Below, in pieces: positions 1 through 58,544 of a stretch of 64,000 nt of DNA (its first letter is position 1; every line of letters starts with the position of its first letter). The notes beneath the pieces are model-generated. The model was not told where the DNA came from, did not search any database, and worked only from the letters and a program-made list of their open reading frames with translations. The position numbers and the translations under genes were made by a program. The stretch lies in assembly GCF_037975245.1 (NCBI RefSeq), contig NC_092567.1:25288876-25352875 (forward strand), written 5' to 3'. This DNA is from Apostichopus japonicus. Its lineage: Eukaryota > Echinodermata > Holothuroidea > Aspidochirotida > Stichopodidae.

Positions 1-9366
<9,366 letters not shown>

Positions 9367-25600: not shown

Positions 25601-28600
25601 TCACACGAAACATAATTTGTATAATATATATATTATTTGTAATTTAAGTGGACCTGTCATGTGCATGTGAAAAAGCATTATTGGGAAAAATTACTTGACT
25701 TTTCATTTCATTTTACCGACCGATAGGCAACGAAAACAAAGACGTTCTTCTGCAGGAATTTGAGAAATCGGGCAAAGGTAACGAAAACAATACTGTGCCA
25801 CCAGAGGTGGAGGACACTACCCCAGGGGATCCCCACTATCAGGCTCACCACCAACCGTACCAGAAGCAACCCTACCAGCATCAGCAGAGTCATCCACAAC
25901 GTTCCCACCCCCGACATCCACGCTACGTCGGAAACACCGAATCAGAGATGGGTTACAAGTACGATGACGAACCCTGCTGTGGCATCTCATTGCTGAAATA
26001 TGTCCTCTTCATCTTCAACTTCTTCCTCTTGGTAAGATGGGATGACTTGACAAATCATCTTGGAATTTTGTGAGATTAAAGACCGGAGCATGTCGAGTTT
26101 TAAAAGTTAAAATGTATCATTGTTGCTTCCTTCTGTACTTTCTTACCTCTTTAGCTTTCTTGCCCTTGACCTTAAAACTAGTAAATATATTTTAAAAATA
26201 TTTATATTTTTTTTAAATATATTTAAAGTGGGAAAGGAAATTTTGCTTTTCACTCTTTATTTGTTTGGGTTCTGAAAACAGAATACATTTTTTTGTCTGT
26301 TTCAATCTTCATGACCATGAAACTTAAAAATATCTTTCTTTTTTTTCTCCTTTTTCTCCTCTTTTCTCCCATTTTCAGCTTGCAGGAGCAGGTGTGCTAG
26401 CAATAGGCATATGGACTCTTATTTCCAAGACCGATTACACAGAGCTGCTATGTTCTAATATTTACTATTTCTCTGTGATAGTGCTTATTATTGCTGGTGG
26501 GCTGATCATGATTCTTGCAGCCACTGGTTGCTATGGAGCTGTAATGGAGGTCAAAGGTTGTTTGTTATTGGTGAGTCAAGTCATATGCATGGGACTTGTA
26601 GTGAGTTTGTAATCCTACTGTTTTATAGTTGACTGTCTCATTATCTCTCATACTCCTACTCTGGATATGTATGTATATTAGATCCTCCTGCAAGCAGGAA
26701 CTCGCGAAGAAGCCTCATTGGCTTATCAAAGCCGCAAGCTGACCGAAGTCAGTCTCTTACATTCATATTTAACGTCCATAATTATGAATTGTTAATTGTC
26801 AACAACTCTGTATTAAACTGGACGACATACATTAATCTGGGAGTGACTCGAACCAGGGTCCTTATGATTGAAAGGCACTGGCGTTAACCACTGAGCTAAC
26901 ACTCCAATATATGAAAAACTCCAATATATGGATATTATGAAAAACCCAGAATGAGTTTCTTCATGATTAGTTACTTGTATTGATAGCACCTTAGAGAGAA
27001 ACCGACAGAGGCGAGCCCACAAGAAGCTTGGAGTAGCTTATAAACGTGAACACCTCCCTCTATAAAATACAAATACGTCTAAATATGAGACAGTAAAACG
27101 GGAGAGAGTGCAAACACACAGAGAAAGGAGTCAAAGATACTAACATAATAGTTGTAAATCCAATATGCATACTGTAAGATGTTTTATTATAATTTCATAG
27201 TCTCTCCTGAAATAACTGCTTTTTACCAATAACAGGATACTCTGGTGGCAGAAAATGTGACATTTATAGCAAGACAAAGATATCTGTTACTAGTAAACAG
27301 AAAACCCTCATCTTAGTCTCTTGTTCTTTGCTCTGGATTTGGTTATTTGAAAGAAACTTATTGTATTTTGGACAACTTGAAAGAATTCTTCAAGCAGGGG
27401 GGGGGGGGAGGGGGAGGGGCAATCCGCTTACTCTCTGGTAAATTCTGTTGACAATAGGGGTTACCTTTAGGTCTTTGATGCACAGAGGATGGAACTATGC
27501 TGGTGAAACAAATCTTCACGATTTTACCATCAACATTTACATGTACATGGCAACAGTATGACTATTAGGTTAGTTTAAGTGTTCATAACAATATTATCCC
27601 AAAGCTGAATATATACTGCAGTAAAGTACAGGTTTTACAGGTACAGTGAGAGCGTGGTGGCCAATTGGCTAAGGCGTCGGACTCATGATCCAAGGATTGC
27701 TGGTTCGATTCCTGCCTAGTTCATTACTTTGTGTCCTTGGGCAAGATGCTTTATCTCACTTGCCTCTCTCCACCCAGGGGTTAAATGGGTACCTGTGAGG
27801 TAACTTGTCATTGGGCGCAGTATATAACTGCTGCCAACTGGAGGGATTGTCTCTGGGACAGGTTTTCAATGACCAGGGGTAATATAACGTCTGTAAAGTG
27901 CTTTGAGACCTATCGCTGGTGTAAAGCGCTATATAAAAAGCAAATCTTATATTAATATTATTTACTTTATTTATTACTGACCTGTCTCCAAACAACAACT
28001 GCACTCTCTCTCTACCATGCATCAAACATTCGGTTAAGTGGTAGCACTTGTCTTCTCGCTGACCGAACACCATTAGTATGAGTACTTGTAGCAAAGGTTA
28101 CAGCAGAAATCCCCTTGGTATGAGTATGAAGTACTAGGCTCTAGTGCAAGTACTTAATCGTTCAGGCAGACTTGTCATTTACAAAGTACCTCACAGGTCC
28201 CCCGTGAGTAGGAGTACTGGTAGCAAAGGTAACAGCAGAAATGCCCGAGGTATGAGTATGAAGTAATAGGCTCTAGTACAAACTTAATCTTTCAGGCAGA
28301 CTTTTAAAAGAGTTATGATGTAATAAACAAATTTAAAAACATTATATCGTAAAAACTAACGATTACATTGGTTTTTGTTCTTTTACAGTATTTTTCTCTT
28401 CTGCTTTTACTGTGCATTATCGAGCTTGGTCTTAGTATCTTCCTCTACATCTTCAGAGCACAGGTAAGTCACATCTTGTTAAAGGCACTGTCTGGTGGAA
28501 GATTTTGAACATTGTCCTTGTAGTTATTATTTTTCTCTTTCAAACCATGTAAAAATTTTCACAATTCGACGTTTTCTTCTTGTAGAAATCTGGTTTTCAA

Positions 28601-31600
28601 ATTCATCAGTTTCTCACGAAAAGTATCGTTTGTTCCAACGCATCAATATGGTGATTGACGTAGTGCAGGCAAATAGGCAAAACAGGCGACTTGAAGTTAG
28701 CACTCCCATTTCCATCTTGTTAAAGGCATTCAAGACTCGCCCCAAACAGCATGCCGCCATCTTTAAAGATTAAAAGTTAACTTTCCGTTGCTTGCAAGTG
28801 AAGTTCTTCTGTTGTCGCTACAAAATGCAGACAGTAATGAAACATGATACCTTGTTATCTTTAGCTGGACCTGAGATGTCCATCGCTGTATTGTTTGTAC
28901 ACTGTGCTGTGGGTATTGACCGCAGCTGTTTGTACTGACTGTACACTAGTGTCTAATTACCGACGGTAGCAAGCTGTGTGTGTATCTTCCGGGATCGATG
29001 GTGGTGTTTAAAACTTCTGTTACACCTCATTCGAAACTAGGTCAGATTACCGGCATCAGACGTTTCTTTTTGCGCGAGTCTTCACACCCTTTAAGCAGCA
29101 CTTTAAACTACAGTGTCCTAACACCTCTACTGCATCTCATGTGGACAATGTTCAGCCAACAGTCTGCCCGAGGCCCGCATCCAAATGTTCTGTAATCCAC
29201 CCAAAAATTTAATGAGGCCAGAAAGGTTTTTTCAAAGGTGTTTTGTTGTTCCGTGCACAAGCCTATATTATCAGAACAGTGTTTTTATTTACCCATGCAT
29301 CAACCGAAATAAAAAATTGTGTTCACTGCATGACCAAAACTGAAACCATGAAGATATTGTAAGTATGTATATATTCCATGGACCATGTGTATACATAACT
29401 TTCTGATCTTTAGATACATAATGTAAAACTGCATCTGTTAAATGTTGAGTCTGCAAAAATATCTAGTATGACTTGAATGAATTTACTTGTGGGGGTATGA
29501 CCATATTTTTGCTATCGCAAAGCCTGCACATGTATATAAACTTTTGAAAAAACCTATGTGCAAAAACCCTGCTTACCACTGGCTGTAAATCATTAATGAA
29601 TCATCTTGGAAACTTAAGAAGTTTAATCCATAAAAATGACACAATAATTATTAACAAGGATCTACTCAAATTAGTGCATAGTACCAATGTATGCGAAAGA
29701 TGAGTAAACATAATTCAGAAATTAATTTTTGTTTATTGACGGTTGGAACATTTATGAGTTATATATACAACCACAACTGTCTCAGACTCTTGACAATCTT
29801 TTAAACCTGACTTGAAGCTAAACTGATCTCTCTGGAATGTCGTTTATTCTGTCACATTACTTTAGAGTGGTGCACAGACAGAATGGTTCAAAATGTCACA
29901 TTAACACATCTCTGTCTATATATATGATATTGCAACCTGTACAGAATTCAAAGTGTATGCAGACACAGTATGTAACTGAAACACCAGTCAAAGAAGTGTG
30001 CGGTGTAATCTGATACAAAGAAGAATGTTAAACTCTGTCTCAATAAAAGAAATGTTTTCCTCATCGGAGGAGTGGTGAGTGGTATGTTCTTAATCCAAAT
30101 TAACAGTTTTCTTGTGATGTTTGTCTCTGACTTTTGTGTAAAGTTGTAATTATTTGGCTACAATTTACTTTTTTTCTTCTCATTCACAGTTGCAAGTAGA
30201 GCTTGAAAGTTGTCTGAATGATACACTGTCTGTACATTATGGAAAAGAGGACAAGAAGGCCTTTACAGAAAATTTTGATGAACTTCAAAGATCGGTAAGA
30301 TCAGCAGTAGGCTGTAGTAGATAGAGAACCTCTGTCCTACACCAGGTTGAGTTTTGTATGAATGTATGTATGCATGTATGTATTTTAGATCCTCCTGCAA
30401 GCAGGAACTCGCGAAGAAGCCTCATTGGCTTATCAAAGCCGCAAGCTGACCGAAAGTCAGTCTCTTACATTCATATTTAACATCCATGATTATGAATTGT
30501 CAACAACTCTGTAAACTGGACGACAAACATTAATCTGGGAGTGACTCGAACCGGGGACCTTATGATTGGAAGGCACCGGCGTTAACCACTGAGCTAACAC
30601 TCCACATGATGATTTTTGCTTTACATTATAGTCACTTCAAAATGTGCATTCTTGATCTGACATTACCTCCTGGCAATAACGGTTAACAGGAACCATTGGC
30701 AACATTGTACTGTAATTTGAGGGTTTTGTTCTGTTATGATAACAACATTTTTATAAAATCTTTGTCGGAAATGCAAACTCATTGTTTTGCATGATACCAA
30801 GATCACTGTAAATACATGTCACAAGAATCACTGTAAAACAGCCTGACCATAACAATTATCAGGACCAATTGTGTGATTATACTGTAGTTTGTGAACTTTC
30901 TCTGTTCCAACTAATCATTTTGTCATCTTCCTGTAGTTCAAGTGCTGTGGTAGCGTCGACTACCGTGACTGGAAAACCAGTTTTTGGAATTCTTCAGGAC
31001 TGGCCAAAAATCGGACTACGCCGGACAGTTGCTGCAAATCCGAAACAAATTTCTGCGCTGCCAGGGACCATCCCTCAAATATCTATCACTATGTAAGCAA
31101 AAAAGGTTCTCGATTTTCAAATATCTTTGATGGTAATGCTGACCAGTTTAGTATTGTTTCGTTATTTCAAAGACCTACGGCATATTTGAGGATGGACATC
31201 AAAGGTTGTCAGTATTTTTTATTAGCAAATATCATCATTCATAAAAAAAAAAATTTTCTTTTTTGGCCATCGTTTATTCAAACTTTGAATTCAATGTACA
31301 ATTTTGATTTTCTATTTTTGTAAATAATCAATAGCTATTTCTTAAATAGCGACCATAATTGTGAAAATTAAAGTGATCAATTAACAACGTATATTAGATT
31401 AATACGAATTTACTTGCTGTGTATGAAGTATTATGTTTATGGTTATTATTATTATGATTTATGTTTATTATGTTAATTATTTATGTTTATGATTATGATG
31501 ATTGTAGACACCTTGGGATGTAATGAAGAATATGGTTGAGTGTCAGAAATGTATTGGAGGAACTTTAAAATGTCATTTTAAAATATATGCAAGTAGCAGT

Positions 31601-41805: not shown

Positions 41806-41937
41806 TCATATTAATTGTCGGAAGAGACAGCAAGCAAAGATCATTCCAAAGATCTGGATGGTACAGACAGCGATACCCAGACCGGCCAAGATGGTAGCGT
41901 ACTGGATCACCTTGTCTCGAATAACTTGATAACAACC
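41806..41937 (-). CDS. Tetraspanin 2 exon 6 (TM4, stop)
   Basis: 43 codons and TGA: GCYQVIRDKVIQYATILAG, TM4, then FACCLFRQLI. Acceptor ttttacag. Confidence 0.95.
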   Translation of the reverse strand, partial: GCYQVIRDKVIQYATILAGLGIAVCTIQIFGMIFACCLFRQLI

Positions 41938-44900
41938 CTGTAAAATGAGACCGTACGAATACAATTACAAAAACTCGAATAGGATATAATATTGCATATG
42001 TTTTGACACCTGATGAAAGTTTAGAATGTAATTTTAGAGAGTTAAATTGTGTTTGCAAGATTTCCCACAATGCACTGTGTGAGCACACATTACAGTAAAT
42101 GGAGCTAATGTATTCAACATCTCTATAACAATGATGTGATTCCATCATTGTATCATGTATAACAGAAAACTCCCAGACATACATACCATTGTTGCTCACA
42201 AAACCATTCCCTGTACAGTAAATTTAGCTAATGTATCAACCATCTCTATAACAATGATGTGATTCCATCATTGTATCATGTATAACCATAGGCGTAGGAG
42301 CCCAATTTGATTTGGGGGGGGGGGGTGGGGGGCTGTAACGACTTGCCCAAAAAATATAACCAAAATTTTTTCAACATGTTAATATGCATATCATATAGAC
42401 ATGCATCGGCTATTACATTGTATGCCAATAACATAAAATCATTTGCCGTGTTATTACCCTTCCATATTGGTAATAATTATTTGGGAAGACGTTACAATAA
42501 TCATGATAATAATAATACCAGTTTAACCATTGAAAAACACATTGCAATTTTTTTTTCTTTCAGTAGGTGCCCGAAAAATTCTCATCATATTGCCCGAATT
42601 TTCACAAAAACTTTTGGTTGGGGGGGGCTGCAGCCCCCCCCCCCCCAAGCCTCCTACGCCTATGTGTATAACAGTAAACTACCAGACATACATACCATAT
42701 CATAGATTAGAGTAGTGTCAGAACCACTGACACAGGCATCCCTGTTGGCTACATCATTGTTCTTGCAACAGGAATCCGGGACTTTTTCTCCGCCACTTCC
42801 CTTAAACCACTCTGACATGCTATATGTTGCTATTGCCACAGTTGCGTTACCATCTACACCGCAACACTTAAACTGTTTGGAAAAGAGAAAAGTGTTTTGT
42901 AAACAAAGAAAAACTTTAAAATTATATGACAATTTTGGAACATAAAGTAAAACCCAACCCATCTTTACAAGCCCATCTCATTCACAGTAATGCAATTTTT
43001 TGGGGCATCCTCTAGGTCGGTTGAAATATAAGGGTGGGATTTAATTCATTAGTTACGAATGTCGTTCTAAAAGATTTGATTGTTGAACAGTGACCTCGCA
43101 TAAAAACTTAAAGATACTGCTAATGACTTTTTCTCTTCAAAGTGACTAGATTTTCACAATCGGTTTAAATTGTATAGTGACTTGACGTAGTACTATTTTA
43201 AGCCTTGTTTTTGAGACTTAATGACACGTAATTGTAACGTTTTGAGATTACACCAATGCATGATGGGATTACATAGAAGGATAGTGAACTTGCATGGATA
43301 TAAATTGACATTACATCGATGAGCTTTACATCATTGAATACAGATTTTTACATCAAACGATTCTAGACAAAATAAGGTGATTTGACTCAAATAAATACAA
43401 ACCAAATATATTGTAGCAAAAGAGGTCCACTGTTTCTTTGTTTTTTTACACAGGACATTACAAGCTAACATTAAATACACCCCCAAGTTTATTCTTTCCC
43501 TTCTTCCTGTATGTAATCCCAGCCTGTACTTCAGATTTATTCTCTTAATTCTTTCTGTACGTAATCCCAGCCTGTGTGCAAGTGTTTATTTCAGATTTAT
43601 TCTCTTACATCGCTCTGTACTGTACGTAATCCCAGCCTGTATATAAGTGTGTATTTCAGATTTATTCTCTTACATTGCAGCTCTGTACGTAATCCCAGCC
43701 TGTATGTAAGTTAGTGTTTATTTCAGATTTATTCTCTTACTTCGTTCTGTACGTAATCCCAGCCTGTATGTAAGTGTGTATTTCAGATTTATTCTCTTAC
43801 AACGCTCTGTACTGTACGTAATCCCAGCCTGTATATAAGTGTGTATTTCAGATTTATTCTCTTACATTGCAGCTCTGTACGTAATCCCAGCCTGTATGTA
43901 AGTTAGTGTTTATTTCAGATTTATTCTCTTACTTCGTTCTGTACGTAATCCCAGCCTGTATGTAAGTGTGTATTTCAGATTTATTCTCTTACTTCGTTCT
44001 GTACGAAATCCCAGCCTGTGTGCAAGTGTTTATTTCAGATTTATTCTCTTACTTAGTTCTGTACGTAATCCCAGCCTGTATGTAAGTGTGTATTTCAGAT
44101 TTATTCTCTTACATCGCTCTGTACTGTACATAATCCCAGCCTGTATATAAGTGTGTATTTCAGATTTATTCTCTTACAACGCTCTGTACTGTACGTAATC
44201 CCAGCCTGTATATAAGTGTGTATTTCAGATTTATTCTTTTGCATCGCTCTGTACGTAATCCCAGCCTGTACGTAAGTCAGTGTGTATTTCAGATTTATTC
44301 TCTAACTTTGTACTGTACTTAATCCCAGCCTGTATGTTAGTTAGTGTGTATTTCAGATTTATTCTCTTACATCGTTCTGTACGTGATCCCAGCCTGTATG
44401 TAAGTAAGTGTGTATTTCAGATTTATTCTCTTACATCGCTCTGTACTGTACGTAATCCCAGCCTGTATGTTAGTTAGTGTGTATTTCAGATTTATTCTCT
44501 TACTTCGTTCTGTACGTAATCCCAGCCTATATATAAGTGTGTATTTCAGATTTATTCTCTTACATCACTCTGTATGTAATCCCAGCCTGTATGTAAGTGT
44601 GTATTTCAGATTTATTCTCTTACATCGCTCTGTACTGTACGTAATCCCAGCCTGTATATAAGTGTGTATTTCAGATTTATTCTCTTACTTCATTCTGTAC
44701 GTAATCCCAGCCCGTATGTAAGTTAGTGTGTATTTCAGATTTATTCTCTTACTTCGTTCTGTACGTAATCCCAGCCCGTATGTAAGTTAGTGTGTATTTC
44801 AGATTTATTCTCTTACTTCGTTCTGTACGTAATCCCAGCCTGTGTGCAAAGGTTTATTTCAGATTTATTTCTTACTTCGTTCTGTACGTAATCCCAGCCT

Positions 44901-47900
44901 GTATGTAAGTGTGTATTTCAGATTTGTTCTCTTACATCGCTCTGTACTGTACGTAATCCCAGCCTGTATATAAGTGTGTATTTCAGATTTATTCTCTTAC
45001 ATCGCTCTGTACATAATCCCAGCCTGTATGTAAGTTAGTGTGTATTTAAGATTTATTCTCTTACATTGTTCTGTACGTAATCCCAGCCTTCTGTAATGTT
45101 TCCCTTTCCTGCCTCCTTGGAGCCGTAGTGCATTTTCAACGAATCTTCCATGTTGCCTTTAATGAAACCTTCGGCCTTGTCAAAGCAAAAGAAGAGAAAA
45201 ATGGTAATAAATACAATTGAGCATACTTTAAAGAGCACTGCAGCATCTTAACAATGCATGGGACTCCTCAGGTATATCCTGTCTCTACACTATACTTTAA
45301 AGAGCACTGCAGCATCTTAACAATGCATGGGACTCCTCAGGTATATCCTGTCTCTACACTATACTTTAAAGAGCACTGCAGCATCTTAACAATGCATGGG
45401 ACTCCTCAGGTATATCCTGTCTCTACACTATACTTTAAAGAGCACTGCAGCGTCTTAACAATGCATGGGACTCCTCAGGTATATCCTGTCTCTACACTAT
45501 ACTTTAAAGAGCCATGCAGCTTGTAACAATGCATGGGACTCCTCAGGTATATCCTGTCTCTACACTATACTTTAAAGAGCAATGCAGCATCTTAACAATG
45601 CATGGGACTCCTCAGGTATATCCTGTCTCTACACTATACTTTAAAGAGCACTGCAGCATCTTAACAATGCATGGGACTCCTCAGGTATATCCTGTCTCTA
45701 CACTATACTTTAAAGGCAATGCAGCATCTTAACAATGCATGGGACTCCTCAGGTATATCCTGTCTCTACACTATACTTTAAAGAGCCATGCAACATCTTA
45801 ACAATGCATGGGACTCCTCAGGTATATCCTGTCTCTACACTATACTTTAAAGAGCCATGCAACATCTTAACAATGCATGGGACTCCTCATGTATATCCTG
45901 TCTCTACACTATACTTTCAAGAGCCATGCAACATCTTAACAATGCATGGGACCCCTCAGGTATATCCTGTAAATACACCCCTACTGGGACTAGAAATTTA
46001 CCTACTGTACCAATCAACTCACCTGTGTGTAACAAGCCAGTGCAATGATTCCAGCAATCAATTCAAGAATGAAAACAAAGAGGAGAAACACAAAGTACTG
46101 AAAGAAGAAAAGAAAAACATATAATTGTAACAAATATTTATAACAGTATAACAGGTTTTAAGATGCTGCACACATTACTGTAGGTCATCTTCTCTCATGA
46201 TGATAACATGACAGGACAGGTTTCATCTGAGCCAAACTTTGAGATTGTGTCAACTGCAGAAGGGGTGTGACTCTGGGGTAACATCATACTAACACCATTA
46301 ATACATGGCAACTAATGAAGTAATAACACCCAACTAGCACCATTAACACTTGGCAACTATTGAAGTAATAACACCATACTAATACCATTAGCACATGTCA
46401 ACTATTGAAGTTATAACACCATACTAATTACCATTAGCACATGGCAACTATTGAAGTAATAACACCTTTAACACAGGGCAACTATTGAAGTAATAACATC
46501 ATACTAACACCATTAATGCATGGCAACTAATGAAGTAATAACACCCAACTAGCACCATCACAATTGTCTAATATTGAAGTAATAACACCATACTAATACC
46601 ATTAGCACATGTCAATTACTGAAGTTATAACACTTAACTAACACCATTAACACATGGCGAAATTGGAATCTTCGTAACTTTACATGTAAATCTGATCCTT
46701 TGGTTGGCTTGGTTATATTACAGACTTATTAATTCTAAGACACTCACAGTTCCCAGAAGGCATCTGCTTTCAAACTTGGTTCCGCAGCATCCTATGAGTG
46801 AGATGGCTACCACACACGTCCCAGCAATGAAGAGGATGTAGGCTGCTGCCTTATACAGGTTGGTTTCGATGATGTTAGCAACTTGATTGCTGGGTTGTGA
46901 GACAGCAACCCATAGACCAACCACCAACAGAGTTAATCCACCAATCTGAAATAGATAATACATTCATACCTCATTTGTTAACATTCTTCCAATATTAACA
47001 TTGTTTTGGGGCTTTCTTGATTGACAGTATACCTCTAGGTATGTGCTATACAAGTGTTGTAAGATAACACCCAAAACTATGTACATGTAGGTAAAGTATC
47101 TGAGCATTAGGTGCAGATACTAAAGTAAAATGAAAGAAATTTAAAGCAATCACATGGATCCTTTAAAGTCCCACCAGCCCCCAGCACCCAACTCCCCCCC
47201 CCAGCCCCCCTCAGTCTCTTCCAATCTTATCCTCACAGCTCTGACTTTTCATGAGGGCGCTGTGCTACGGCTCATGAGGGCGTTGTGCTACCGCTCATGA
47301 GGGCGCTGTGCTACGGCTCATGAGGGCGCTGTGCTACGGCTCATGAGGGCGCTGTGCTACCACCGGTGGCTATTTCTGAATGTTGGTTTGATTCCTGTCT
47401 GTCACCCTCCAACGTCACCCACCACCTCAGATATTTTGGGATCCCTGTATGTTGTTTATATGTACAGGTTGTAGCACTGATGATTTCCAAACTAGTGAGA
47501 GAGACTAAAAAGGTAGTACTTAGCACTGATTGGTACACTGATTGTACATGTATAGTATAGACAACAGTTGTTAGATGTACGTTAAGTACTAAACTTAATA
47601 ATGAGTCTGTAGAGGTATTTTCATTACATCAGTATTGTACAATACTGTACTTGCACTCAACTCAACTTGCACAGGAGATCAGTTTGAGACCTATGACGTA
47701 CCAGTCTGTGAAATATACGGTGGCATATTCCATACAGAGTCTATATTATTAAGCTGAAGTGTTCTCACTCAGGAAAAGTGCCAAAAAGCATTTATAAGGA
47801 AAACATCGTTTTTGATATGTTATCAAACAGAATCTGTTTTATTGTGGCGTTGATGTTGAAGAGCATGGATGGAAATATATATGTGGTGCACACATAGGGT

Positions 47901-50900: not shown

Positions 50901-52288
50901 TTTTTCAGGTTGTACACTTACGGTCTCTAAATCAAGTCATCAATTGCAATCAACTGAAATCAAAATTAATTTACATGATACTTTCACTTGAACTTTGTAC
51001 AGTATACTGTATTTACTGTAATAAATGTATACATATATATACAGCATAACAGACTGTATAGTTACTGTACTATACAGCATAACAAACTGTATAGTTACTG
51101 TAATAACTCTATACATACAACATAACAGTATAGTTACTGTTATAACTGTACACACATGTAACAGTATAGCTACAATAAACTGTACAGTGTACACCTATAC
51201 AGTGTAAGAGCATACTGTAACTAATTTATAATAACTGTATACACAACTGTGCAACAGTATAGTTTCAAAATCAAACTATTTTGTGGTATTCTCCAGTCAA
51301 GCCAATACCGCAAAAAAACTGATTCATCAAAATTCATGAATTGAATCCATTTCCATAAAATGAGACTTGACCTACTGTACTTTCTGTGACAAATCACTGA
51401 TTTTTAATTACCCATACTAATCCAAGAAACATGCCCAATATTATGCTGTATTGCTCAGAGTACAAACAAGACTTAGAAAGTACACAGAAATACTGTATTA
51501 ATAAAAGAGTTTCTACAATGGTATCATGTGGGATTGTAATAAGTTGCTTAACCAGGATATAAAGAGGTGTGTCTCTACACTGACAACTACCTCACTCTAT
51601 AGAAAGACTGATTACTGTGGGTGGGTGTCATGGTAACAACACTCCTACCAGATAAATAACACTGTCAATGAGTCACATGGGCTAGGGACAAGACCTGAAG
51701 ATACACTCAAATCCCCCAATCAACAATGCTTAATGGAATTACAGTTAGAGTAATCAGGAATAATTTAGCCAGCAGGCAAGCTACAATACTTGTTGCCTTT
51801 CACTCTAAAGGTACATTCACAATAGTAACAGAATCTCTGCACTTGTATGCCTTCATAAACAGGAAATGATCTCAAATTCAATATGCTTTTAATCACTGTA
51901 CTGTCAATAATTTAAACTATTAAATAAAATAATTTTAACAAGAATATTTTAACTTTGTTGCATCTTGTGGTAAATTATACAATAGTGATGTAAGATAGGA
52001 CGTTGATGCTTAAACCCAGTTAAACCTATTGTACGATTAATTAAGGAATAAATATTTACTACATAATTAAAAATGTATGATAATAAATTACTAGTACACT
52101 GGTAGCAAGAAGTTTGCTACAATATATATTATAATGTTAATTTGTAAACTGTACTAATTAGGCAATCCAACTATATAACGACCTTACTGAATACTTACCA
52201 GGAAAAGAACATTGAATGAATACAACAGTAACTTGCAGCATTTTCCTCCACATCCAAGTTCCTTCTCAATTTTGATTTTATCTCCCAT
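41806..52288 (-). CDS. Tetraspanin of CD151/CD9-like build
   Basis: Six coding exons on the minus strand: 52288-52199, 46945-46748, 46097-46023, 45175-45065, 42872-42696 and 41937-41806. All junctions are phase 0, giving 260 codons. Seen: MGDKIKIEKELGCGGKCCK (membrane-proximal cysteines), TM1, EC1, TM2 ending LIGCCG, TM3 YFVFLLFVFILELIAG, an EC2 of about 95 residues with FKCCG (159-163), PDSCC, DAC and GC (six cysteines), TM4 and tail CCLFRQLI. Length and layout are standard. It is tail to tail with tetraspanin 1 but not a close copy. Closest vertebrate relative not decided. Confidence 0.95.
42088..42286. repeat. Tandem duplication in tetraspanin 2 intron 5, includes copied splice donor
   Basis: Two roughly 140-bp units share ctctataacaatgatgtgat and tccatcattgtatcatgtat. 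The segment ccagacatacataccat at 42173-42189 copies the exon 5 donor region at 42681-42697. Confidence 0.85.
42287..42664. mobile_element. hAT-type MITE, CATAGGCG family, complete copy
   Basis: Ends cataggcgtaggag and ctcctacgcctatg, with a perfect 8-bp duplication tgtataac (42279-42286, 42665-42672). It was inserted into the tandem duplication just downstream of exon 5. Confidence 0.95.
42696..42872 (-). CDS. Tetraspanin 2 exon 5 (CCG, PxSCC)
   Basis: 59 codons with FKCCGVDGN, KVPDSCCKNN and DACVSG. Acceptor ccaaacag, donor GATATG|gtatgt. Confidence 0.95.
43495..45060 (-). repeat. 60-70-bp minisatellite made from exon 4 end and its 5' splice site
   Basis: About 25 units filling intron 4 of tetraspanin 2. 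On the minus strand each has ggctgggattacgtacagaa, a few bases, then gtaagagaataaatct and gaaatacacac. The first part equals the last bases of exon 4 (codons GWDYVQ) and the gtaaga equals its donor. Confidence 0.95.
45065..45175 (-). CDS. Tetraspanin 2 exon 4 (EC2 helices)
   Basis: 37 codons, AEGFIKGNMEDSLKMHYG through GWDYVQNN. Acceptor tttgacaag, donor AACAAT|gtaaga. Its last 20 or so bases and donor are the seed of the minisatellite that follows. Confidence 0.92.
45222..45975. repeat. 69-bp minisatellite in tetraspanin 2 intron 3
   Basis: About eleven units of acaatgcatgggactcctca, ggtatatcctgtctctacac, tatactttaaagagc. The length is a multiple of three and one plus frame stays open across several units (MHGTPQVYPVSTLYFKE repeated). 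It is intronic and on the wrong strand for the gene, so I do not call it coding. Confidence 0.95.
46023..46097 (-). CDS. Tetraspanin 2 exon 3 (TM3)
   Basis: 25 codons, the same size as the matching exon of tetraspanin 1. Acceptor ctttcag, donor ACACAG|gtgagt. Confidence 0.95.
46290..46660. repeat. 45-48-bp tandem repeat in tetraspanin 2 intron 2
   Basis: Seven or eight diverged units of catggcaactattgaagtaa, taacaccatactaataccat, tagca. Confidence 0.9.
46748..46945 (-). CDS. Tetraspanin 2 exon 2 (TM1 end, EC1, TM2)
   Basis: 66 codons, IGGLTLLVVGLWVAV through ISLIGCCGTKFESRC. Acceptor tatttcag, donor GGAACT|gtgagt. Confidence 0.95.
47246..47362. repeat. 24-bp tandem repeat, five units
   Basis: Unit gctcatgagggcgctgtgct followed by acg. 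In tetraspanin 2 intron 1. Confidence 0.92.
47668..47773 (+). repeat. Dispersed repeat, copy 1
   Basis: ggagatcagtttgagaccta and the following 85 bases recur at 49453-49560 at high identity. No ends typical of a transposon are seen. Confidence 0.75.
48811..49118 (-). mobile_element. SINE family A, full-length minus-strand copy
   Basis: Begins with TAA repeats (its 3' tail), then tatagcgctttatac and caaagcgcttt, the reverse body, and ends with acgctctc, the reverse of the tRNA-like head. In tetraspanin 2 intron 1. Confidence 0.93.
49453..49560 (+). repeat. Dispersed repeat, copy 2
   Basis: Matches 47668-47773 (cagtttgag, ccagtctgtgaaat, tacggtggcat, attaagctgaagtgtt). Confidence 0.75.
49670..49925 (+). 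mobile_element. LINE ORF2 C-terminal relic
   Basis: Plus-strand codons from about 49729 read RVVN, a stop, WNGLPEKVVLASSVNGLKNA and LDKHF. This matches the tail of CR1/RTE-like LINE reverse transcriptases, where RVVNxWNxLP is common. The in-frame stop and short length mark it as dead. Confidence 0.75.
50985..51260. repeat. Degenerate ACAGTATAGTTACTGTA tandem repeat
   Basis: Units of about 45-50 bp with aacagactgtatagttactg and atacatacaacataac variants, rich in self-complementary tacagta/tactgta. Confidence 0.8.
52199..52288 (-). CDS. Tetraspanin 2 exon 1
   Basis: ATG at 52288, 30 codons, donor TTCCTG|gtaagt. A good acceptor (tttgtttcctaatag) lies just upstream, so this exon likely starts at 52328 and an untranslated exon lies further right. 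Confidence 0.93.
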
Positions 52289-56992: not shown

Positions 56993-58544
56993 CCCTTACC
57001 GAAATCCCAGATCTGGGCCAGATATAAAAATCCAGATCTGGCCCAGATCTGCAATTTCAATCTGGGCCAGATCTGCTGCAGATCTGGAATTTATATCTGG
57101 CCAGATAAAAAATTGGGCAGATATAACTTGATATAAAATCAAGTTTTATATGGCCCATATAAAATTTGATCTGGTTAAATTTTATTGCATCCATATCTGG
57201 GCCAGATAAAATTTTATCTGGTTGATATAAACAAAATCCAGATAAACTTTTATATGGCCCATATAAAATTTGATCTGGTTAAATTTTATTGCATGCATAT
57301 CTGGGCCAGATAAAACTTTATCTGGTTGATATAAATAAAATCCAGATAAACATTTATATGGCCCATATAAAAATAAAAATTATCTGGCTAAAATGTCGAT
57401 CAAATAGGAAATAAGTGGCCAAAACTGGACTAGCATTGAGAGTAACTTTCCAGTGTGATCAGTTATCTCTGTTCTGGTACGGAGACCCATACAAAGAGCA
57501 AGACACACAAAATATAAACACAGAACTCAACTGGATTGGAACATAGTGGAAATATGTAATGTGCATGCTGCATGCACATTACACATTTTTACTATACGTA
57601 CCTTACCAAAACATTTGCAAACTGATATTGAATACATGTACATTCAAAGTTTTGGCCCAGGTAAATCATATTACTTAAATAAACTGGCATCGTGCGGTAC
57701 CACTAGTACACTTAAAAATAATAATTGAAGGTTGAATTCTTTATTCTTCTGTGGTCCTGTAGATGTTGATACTAAATTGCGTTGTGTTATTCTTTTATTT
57801 AATATATTTGCTTTAATAAATAAGTTCCAGGATTTAATAAATAAGTTTCAGTATCGAAGTTCAGTCCCAAGATATATTCCTTGTTGCCATCCGTTCCAAA
57901 AAATTCTTCCTTACTTCTGACCGTTCAGTTCACTATAGAATCCTTTTCCAATGTCCTGACATCAATAGGTTATTATGTACGAATCTCCATCACCTTTTCT
58001 TAATGTACCAATCCTATCTATTAAACTTCCTTCTGCTCTCTACTCCTACCATGTGTACACTCCCTTTCCTATCTCACTCCTAGAGTATCAATACACATAT
58101 GTCCATTGTTCAAAAGCGGGCTGAGTCATCCTGTTTCTAGCTAAGACCCTGCGGTTGCCCAGCAACCCATATAGAGATAGTTGTTACCCACCCCCTTTGA
58201 CTTAGTGTGCACTGTAAGTGATTTACCATTGAAATATATATGCATAGTGCAGTACCACAATATAGTGCAATGTAAATCTCTATGAAAATATACTATGTAA
58301 GAGCAAACAGTCTTACATGTATATCCAGTTATACCTGGCTTGATATTGCCAGATAAAACTTAACCTGCATATCTGGATTGACTCTATATCAGTTATATAT
58401 GGCTTTATATGGCCAGATAAAACTTTATCTGCATACTCTGGATCGACTCTATATCCAGTTATATCTGGCTTTATATGGCCAGATAAAACTTTATCTGGCC
58501 AGATTAAACCAGATATAAAGCCAGATCTGGGATTTCGGTAAGGG
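56993..58544. mobile_element. 1.55-kb terminal-inverted-repeat element with ATCTGG/CCAGAT arrays
   Basis: The left end cccttaccgaaatcccagat and right end atctgggatttcggtaaggg are perfect inverted repeats. Both subterminal zones, about 390 and 220 bp, are packed with atctgg, ccagat and gatataaa words that pair with each other. The interior (57400-58300) shows no transposase. No clear target duplication is seen, so the class is unknown. Confidence 0.85.
57555..57583. other. Perfect 13-bp hairpin
   Basis: tgtaatgtgcatg and catgcacattaca with a 3-base loop, inside the element at 56993-58544. Confidence 0.9.

Follow-up and report, generated by a model that had tools for sequence, protein, structure and literature searches.

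How did the end of a coding exon and its splice donor come to be repeated some 25 times inside an intron, and which of the resulting donors would splicing use? This question is raised by a tetraspanin gene of the holothuroid Apostichopus japonicus, which lies on the minus strand of a 64,000-nucleotide stretch of contig NC_092567.1 (assembly GCF_037975245.1, positions 25,288,876 to 25,352,875), referred to here as the window, whose own positions are given throughout. The source assembly comprises 671.6 Mb in 35 contigs, the window lying on the one numbered C7. According to a model built from AG/GT flanks and the reading frame, the gene has six coding exons joined in phase 0 at every junction and encodes a protein of 260 residues. 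Its intron 4 is 2192 bp long and has a minisatellite at its start. We favor, with fair confidence, the explanation that this is a local passenger minisatellite, in which the first donor is mainly used and some leakage gives rise to prematurely stopped transcripts.

Tandem Repeats Finder (TRF) placed the array at 43525-45096, with a period of 64, 25.0 copies and a score of 2003. Together with the six-exon model, this result confirmed the first-pass annotation, which had located a tandem array in intron 4 of a tetraspanin gene on the minus strand. On the sense (minus) strand, a GGCTGGGATTACGTACAG-like core was counted 26 times, once as the end of exon 4 (copy 0) and 25 times in the intron (copies 1 to 25), and the array runs on from exon 4 without a break. 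Each unit consists of 23 to 24 nt of exon end (23, 26 or 28 nt when counted to the donor), rather than the roughly 18 bases first estimated, followed by the donor and by 36 to 41 nt leading to the next unit. Full units measure 59 to 69 nt, with length variants arising from 5-nt, 4-nt and 3-nt insertions, while unit 24 is truncated (48 nt) and unit 25 is degenerate, agreeing with the consensus at 34 of 60 compared bases. The GTAAGA donor had been attributed to every unit; it is intact in 21 of the 25 array units, or in 22 of 26 copies if the real donor is counted. Similarly, acag had been described as standing directly before ggctggg in each unit. An AG does precede 23 of the 25 array units, but it has been lost before copies 5 and 6, and the final g of acag is at the same time the first G of ggctggg. 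Both a preceding AG and GTAAGA are present in 19 of the 25 array units.

The match between the repeat and exon 4 was specific. Alignment of the array consensus with exon 4 gave a score of 45, whereas 200 shuffles of exon 4 reached 24 at most, which bears out the earlier proposal that the unit is built from the exon 4 end and its donor. None of the other five exons scored above its own shuffle maximum against the array consensus, nor did any of three other tested arrays of the gene (in introns 1, 2 and 3) exceed the shuffle maximum against the gene's exons. The exon piece encodes EGWDYVQNN immediately ahead of FKCCG. In the alignment here, TSPAN7 shares D-VQ and CCGV and UPK1B shares WD, while CD9 has little resemblance; the repeated stretch is thus normal coding sequence of a tetraspanin. 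The exon border was also compared at six paralogous loci and in the window's second tetraspanin gene. At L021, L023 and L034, as well as near 30937 in the second tetraspanin, the xxCCG codons immediately follow an acceptor AG; at L024 this AG is missing before a CCG that lies in open frame, and L020 and L030 showed no CCG. The border is thus common to four of the five paralogous CCG exons seen, so that, for at least some of the family, intron 4 predates the array, which was added inside it. Since the repeated piece encodes a tetraspanin segment and adjoins this shared border, the end of exon 4 is the likely source of the repeat.

Only three pairs of units are identical (4 and 5, 18 and 21, and 19 and 22), and most units differ. 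Among units 1 to 23, distance from exon 4 had no bearing on how far a unit differs from the exon copy (Spearman −0.03, P = 0.89). Minority bases in the same units were about equally rare in the exon-derived core (7/414), the donor (3/138) and the intron core (6/436), indicating about equal upkeep, while variation was higher in the five bases that end the exon piece (29/115) and in the tail (21/276). The identity of distant units, the absence of a gradient and the equal upkeep fit slippage and unequal exchange with homogenization. Selection on the donors was considered and is unsupported, as the donor is no better kept than the neighboring intron. Arrays are hard to assemble, and the copy number could have been inflated by assembly error; however, this is improbable given that most units differ and that no more than three pairs are identical.

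We then considered which donor would be chosen. The first-pass annotation had suggested that the spliceosome must select the first of 26 near-identical donors, with the others acting as potential decoys, and the decoy idea is sound. On a 5' splice-site matrix, the real donor scored 3.68; the decoys in units 19 and 22 tied with it, and the other scored decoys were lower. The predicted energy of pairing with the U1 5' end was −4.3 to −4.5 kcal/mol, both for the real donor and for those intact decoys that were scored, the intact donor of unit 2 lying outside the scoring. The spliceosome would most likely take the first donor, which lies closest to the exon 4 acceptor and is outscored by none of the scored decoys, leaving the protein unchanged.

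The donor is accompanied by a second signal that was absent from the first-pass annotation. The hexamer AATAAA occurs in 25 of the 26 copies, and in the 21 copies having both signals it begins 7 nt (once 6 nt) past the donor's G. The array stretch contains 30 such hexamers, compared with 2.2 expected from the rest of the minus strand. Reading through the real donor adds VRE and then TAA, a stop that lies inside the hexamer. At the exon 4 junction, the exon end is therefore followed in turn by the donor, the stop and the poly(A) hexamer, and donor and hexamer recur along the array. Full-length transcripts depend on U1 pairing, and proximal poly(A) signals are silenced by U1 (PMC6946686). The array might accordingly form a decoy and early-termination cassette, whose U1 sites, stops and AATAAA hexamers set the level of full-length tetraspanin: the sites would compete with the real donor, intronic polyadenylation would yield a three-transmembrane product when U1 is limiting, and copy number would tune the outcome. 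The spacing of 6 to 7 nt in 20 of the 21 array units with GTAAGA (all but unit 2), the excess of hexamers, the shielding of full-length transcripts by U1 from nearby poly(A) signals (PMC6946686) and the existence of composite terminal exons (PMC4227790) speak for such a device. However, the hexamer is already part of the copy adjoining exon 4, so passive copying suffices to explain its recurrence, and a U- or GU-rich downstream element was not evident by eye in the unit. We therefore regard a control function as doubtful. Its more specific form, a length-tunable cassette combining a U1 sponge with an early-termination zone, in which the proportion of full-length protein to a three-transmembrane form with a truncated large loop would depend on copy number and U1 supply, is more doubtful still.

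The first-pass annotation had also suggested that units could serve as microexons of about 23 bases, and 19 of the array units do have an AG preceding and GTAAGA following the exon-like piece. This proposal was weakened by the quality of the acceptors. Between positions −20 and −5, pyrimidines make up 50% of the array acceptors on average and 62.5% at most, and T makes up 26% on average and 31% at most, whereas the five real acceptors of the gene have 56 to 100% pyrimidine and 44 to 81% T, with 81% and 62.5%, respectively, for exon 4. Because exon 2 has 56%, array and real acceptors overlap in pyrimidine content; in T content they are separate. In addition, only 36 to 41 nt separate a donor from the next unit's acceptor, the exon-like lengths of 23, 26 and 28 nt are all indivisible by three, and when one unit of each length was tested for single inclusion, an early stop resulted every time. 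The T-poor acceptors, the short spacing and the early stops make microexon use unlikely, and the inclusion of a single unit would be disruptive. The use of units as alternative 23-, 26- or 28-nt microexons generating a family of isoforms is very improbable.

To look for related repeats, we searched the whole assembly with a 39-nt unit core, allowing up to 3 mismatches. The 12 hits comprised the exon 4 copy and 11 sites in the array, and a reversed control of the core had no match in the assembly. A 1.8-kb query matched only itself in a DNA search that skips very common words. Homologous repeats elsewhere without an exon match, which the first-pass annotation had named as the sign of a dispersed satellite, were thus not seen in 671.6 Mb with a core search that recovers 12 of the 26 local copies. 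That a dispersed satellite landed beside exon 4, its exon likeness being secondary, is hardly credible: the gene's other introns do hold unrelated minisatellites, but no copy was found elsewhere by searches that can miss diverged or very common sequence, and the exon piece aligns with TSPAN7 (D-VQ) and UPK1B (WD), if little with CD9, as tetraspanin coding sequence.

The favored explanation, a local passenger minisatellite, would begin with a tandem duplication across the exon 4/intron 4 junction of an old tetraspanin intron. Its anatomy and its identical distant units are observed, and no other locus was found; slippage and unequal exchange would be the means by which it grew and was homogenized. 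The array would thereby have added 21 intact, near-equal donors beside the real one, nearly all with AATAAA just after them. A minority of transcripts may enter the array or take a downstream donor and so end at the VRE-stop. Such transcripts would be expected to be degraded or to encode a shortened tetraspanin without the CCG half of the large loop and the fourth transmembrane segment. The array itself would probably be neutral or carry a small cost.

Several observations weigh against this explanation. Among the gene's five donors, the real donor of intron 4 had the lowest predicted accessibility in a local fold (0.0013, compared with 0.010 to 0.038), which speaks mildly against its ready use; two array-free proxies gave donor accessibilities of 0.010 and 0.030. 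The ATGTAAG of the real donor can pair with a CTTACAT about 25 nt downstream (45028-45034 and 45060-45066), each of these words occurs in 11 of the 26 copies, and the hiding of the donor in a tandem of the consensus was equaled by 6 of 300 shuffles. We do not claim a function for RNA structure, as the first 201 nt fold no more stably than shuffled sequences (z = −0.53; 59 of 200 shuffles were at least as stable). The persistence of GTAAGA in most array units could also be read as selection, although the adjoining intron bases persist equally. Finally, diverged copies elsewhere could escape a 39-nt pattern that misses part of the local array, and the genome comparison covers one assembly only, which bears on the age of the array.

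The joined exons 2 to 6 of the host gene matched Pfam PF00335 at 2.7e-44 and 152 bits (cut-off, 32.1) over profile positions 14 to 225 of 225, and their best solved-structure match was TSPAN7 (5e-21). A CCG motif in the large loop together with further cysteines is characteristic of tetraspanins, and exons 5 and 6 encode FKCCG, DSCCK and later Cys. The features of the gene and its array are listed in Table 1.

Table 1. Features of the tetraspanin gene and of its intron 4 array (window positions)
Feature	Position	Strand	Remarks
Exon 1, coding part (MGDKIKIEKELGCGGKCCKLLLYSFNVLFL)	52199..52288	-	Open, phase 0, then GTAAGT
Exon 2	46748..46945	-	AG/GT flanks, phase 0
Exon 3	46023..46097	-	AG/GT flanks, phase 0
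Exon 4 (AEGFIKGNMEDSLKMHYGSKEAGKGNITEGWDYVQNN)	45065..45175	-	Last 23-24 nt are the likely repeat source
Authentic intron 4 donor GTAAGA	45059..45064	-	
Array units 1-25	43462..45023	-	Exon 4 end, donor, AATAAA and further intron bases; low end set by a fixed length assigned to unit 25 (TRF array end, 43525)
Multi-unit duplication	43637..43955	-	Units 18 and 19 identical to units 21 and 22, three units on
Exon 5 (FKCCG...)	42696..42872	-	Expected true acceptor of intron 4; border matches four paralogous exons
Exon 6, including stop	41806..41937	-	

The gene holds many other minisatellites. The one in intron 3 (45223-45970; 69 bp × 10.9, 97% matches) lies about 48 bp from exon 4 and showed no match to the gene's exons above shuffles; more are found in introns 1 and 2 (47249-47360, 46279-46658 and 51038-51154). 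The second tetraspanin gene of the window occupies 25699-31100 on the plus strand, with a FKCCGSVDYRDW exon at 30937; one of its exons matched Pfam at 1.2e-06 and 28.8 bits, below the 32.1 cut-off. The window's contig carries 17 of the 29 listed tetraspanin matches, which include exon 2 of the gene described here (L018) and an exon of the second tetraspanin (L026). Within about 1.5 kb on each side of these 29 loci, no TRF array with a period of at least 12 overlapped the matched stretch, the nearest, at L023, ending 13 bases before its match. Elsewhere in the window, we noted a perfect (GAT)50 microsatellite (2867-3016, 100% matches) and a cluster of short arrays of CCAGAT/ATCTGG-type words at 57002-58509.

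The locus offers a natural test of how one donor is chosen among 22 near-identical ones in a single intron, with U1 pairing predicted to be about equal across those scored. Copy-number variants, if they exist, would directly measure the effect of decoy number. More generally, it shows how splice and poly(A) signals can be copied into an intron through a minisatellite while, according to the gene model, the coding exons remain unchanged.

The closest known system is the minisatellite of human IFI6 (6-16), whose repeat units are 12 nt long. There, two downstream repeat units serve as donors and give rise to three mRNAs (PMC4526556). Both minisatellites have splice donors in their units, which in the tetraspanin gene form tandem donor-like sites adjoining exon 4. 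The IFI6 units are far shorter and its alternative donors are reported to be used, whereas the full tetraspanin units of 59 to 69 nt carry an exon end, a candidate alternative donor, AG and AATAAA. Boundary tandem repeats in human segmental-duplication genes likewise alter intron/exon structure through the effect of minisatellite expansion on splice sites (PMC2812944); those were found by comparing genomic with transcribed sequence, whereas the tetraspanin array was found in genomic sequence, inside an existing intron. In models of intron gain by tandem duplication (the Rogers model, with ATP2A1, fission-yeast 24-bp repeats and potato RdRp as examples; PMC4974935), a duplication at or near a boundary also creates donor-acceptor pairs. 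Such a gain presupposes that the intron was absent before the duplication, but an AG stands at xxCCG in L021, L023, L034 and the second tetraspanin; with this border common to four of five paralogous exons, a new intron is not required. The MSY2 minisatellite of DDX3Y was rejected as a parallel, since it is a start site in the 5' untranslated region and not a copied donor (PMC3039753). Composite terminal exons (PMC4227790) and the control of intronic poly(A) sites by U1 (PMC6946686) resemble the tetraspanin junction in the succession of donor, stop and AATAAA, but here donor and hexamer are repeated in tandem. A search of the open-licence literature for tetraspanin, minisatellite and intron found no paper, in agreement with the earlier remark that such an array had not been described for a tetraspanin, although the kind is known from IFI6; it is the example with a long unit, a stop and a poly(A) hexamer that is new, as far as these literature searches reach.

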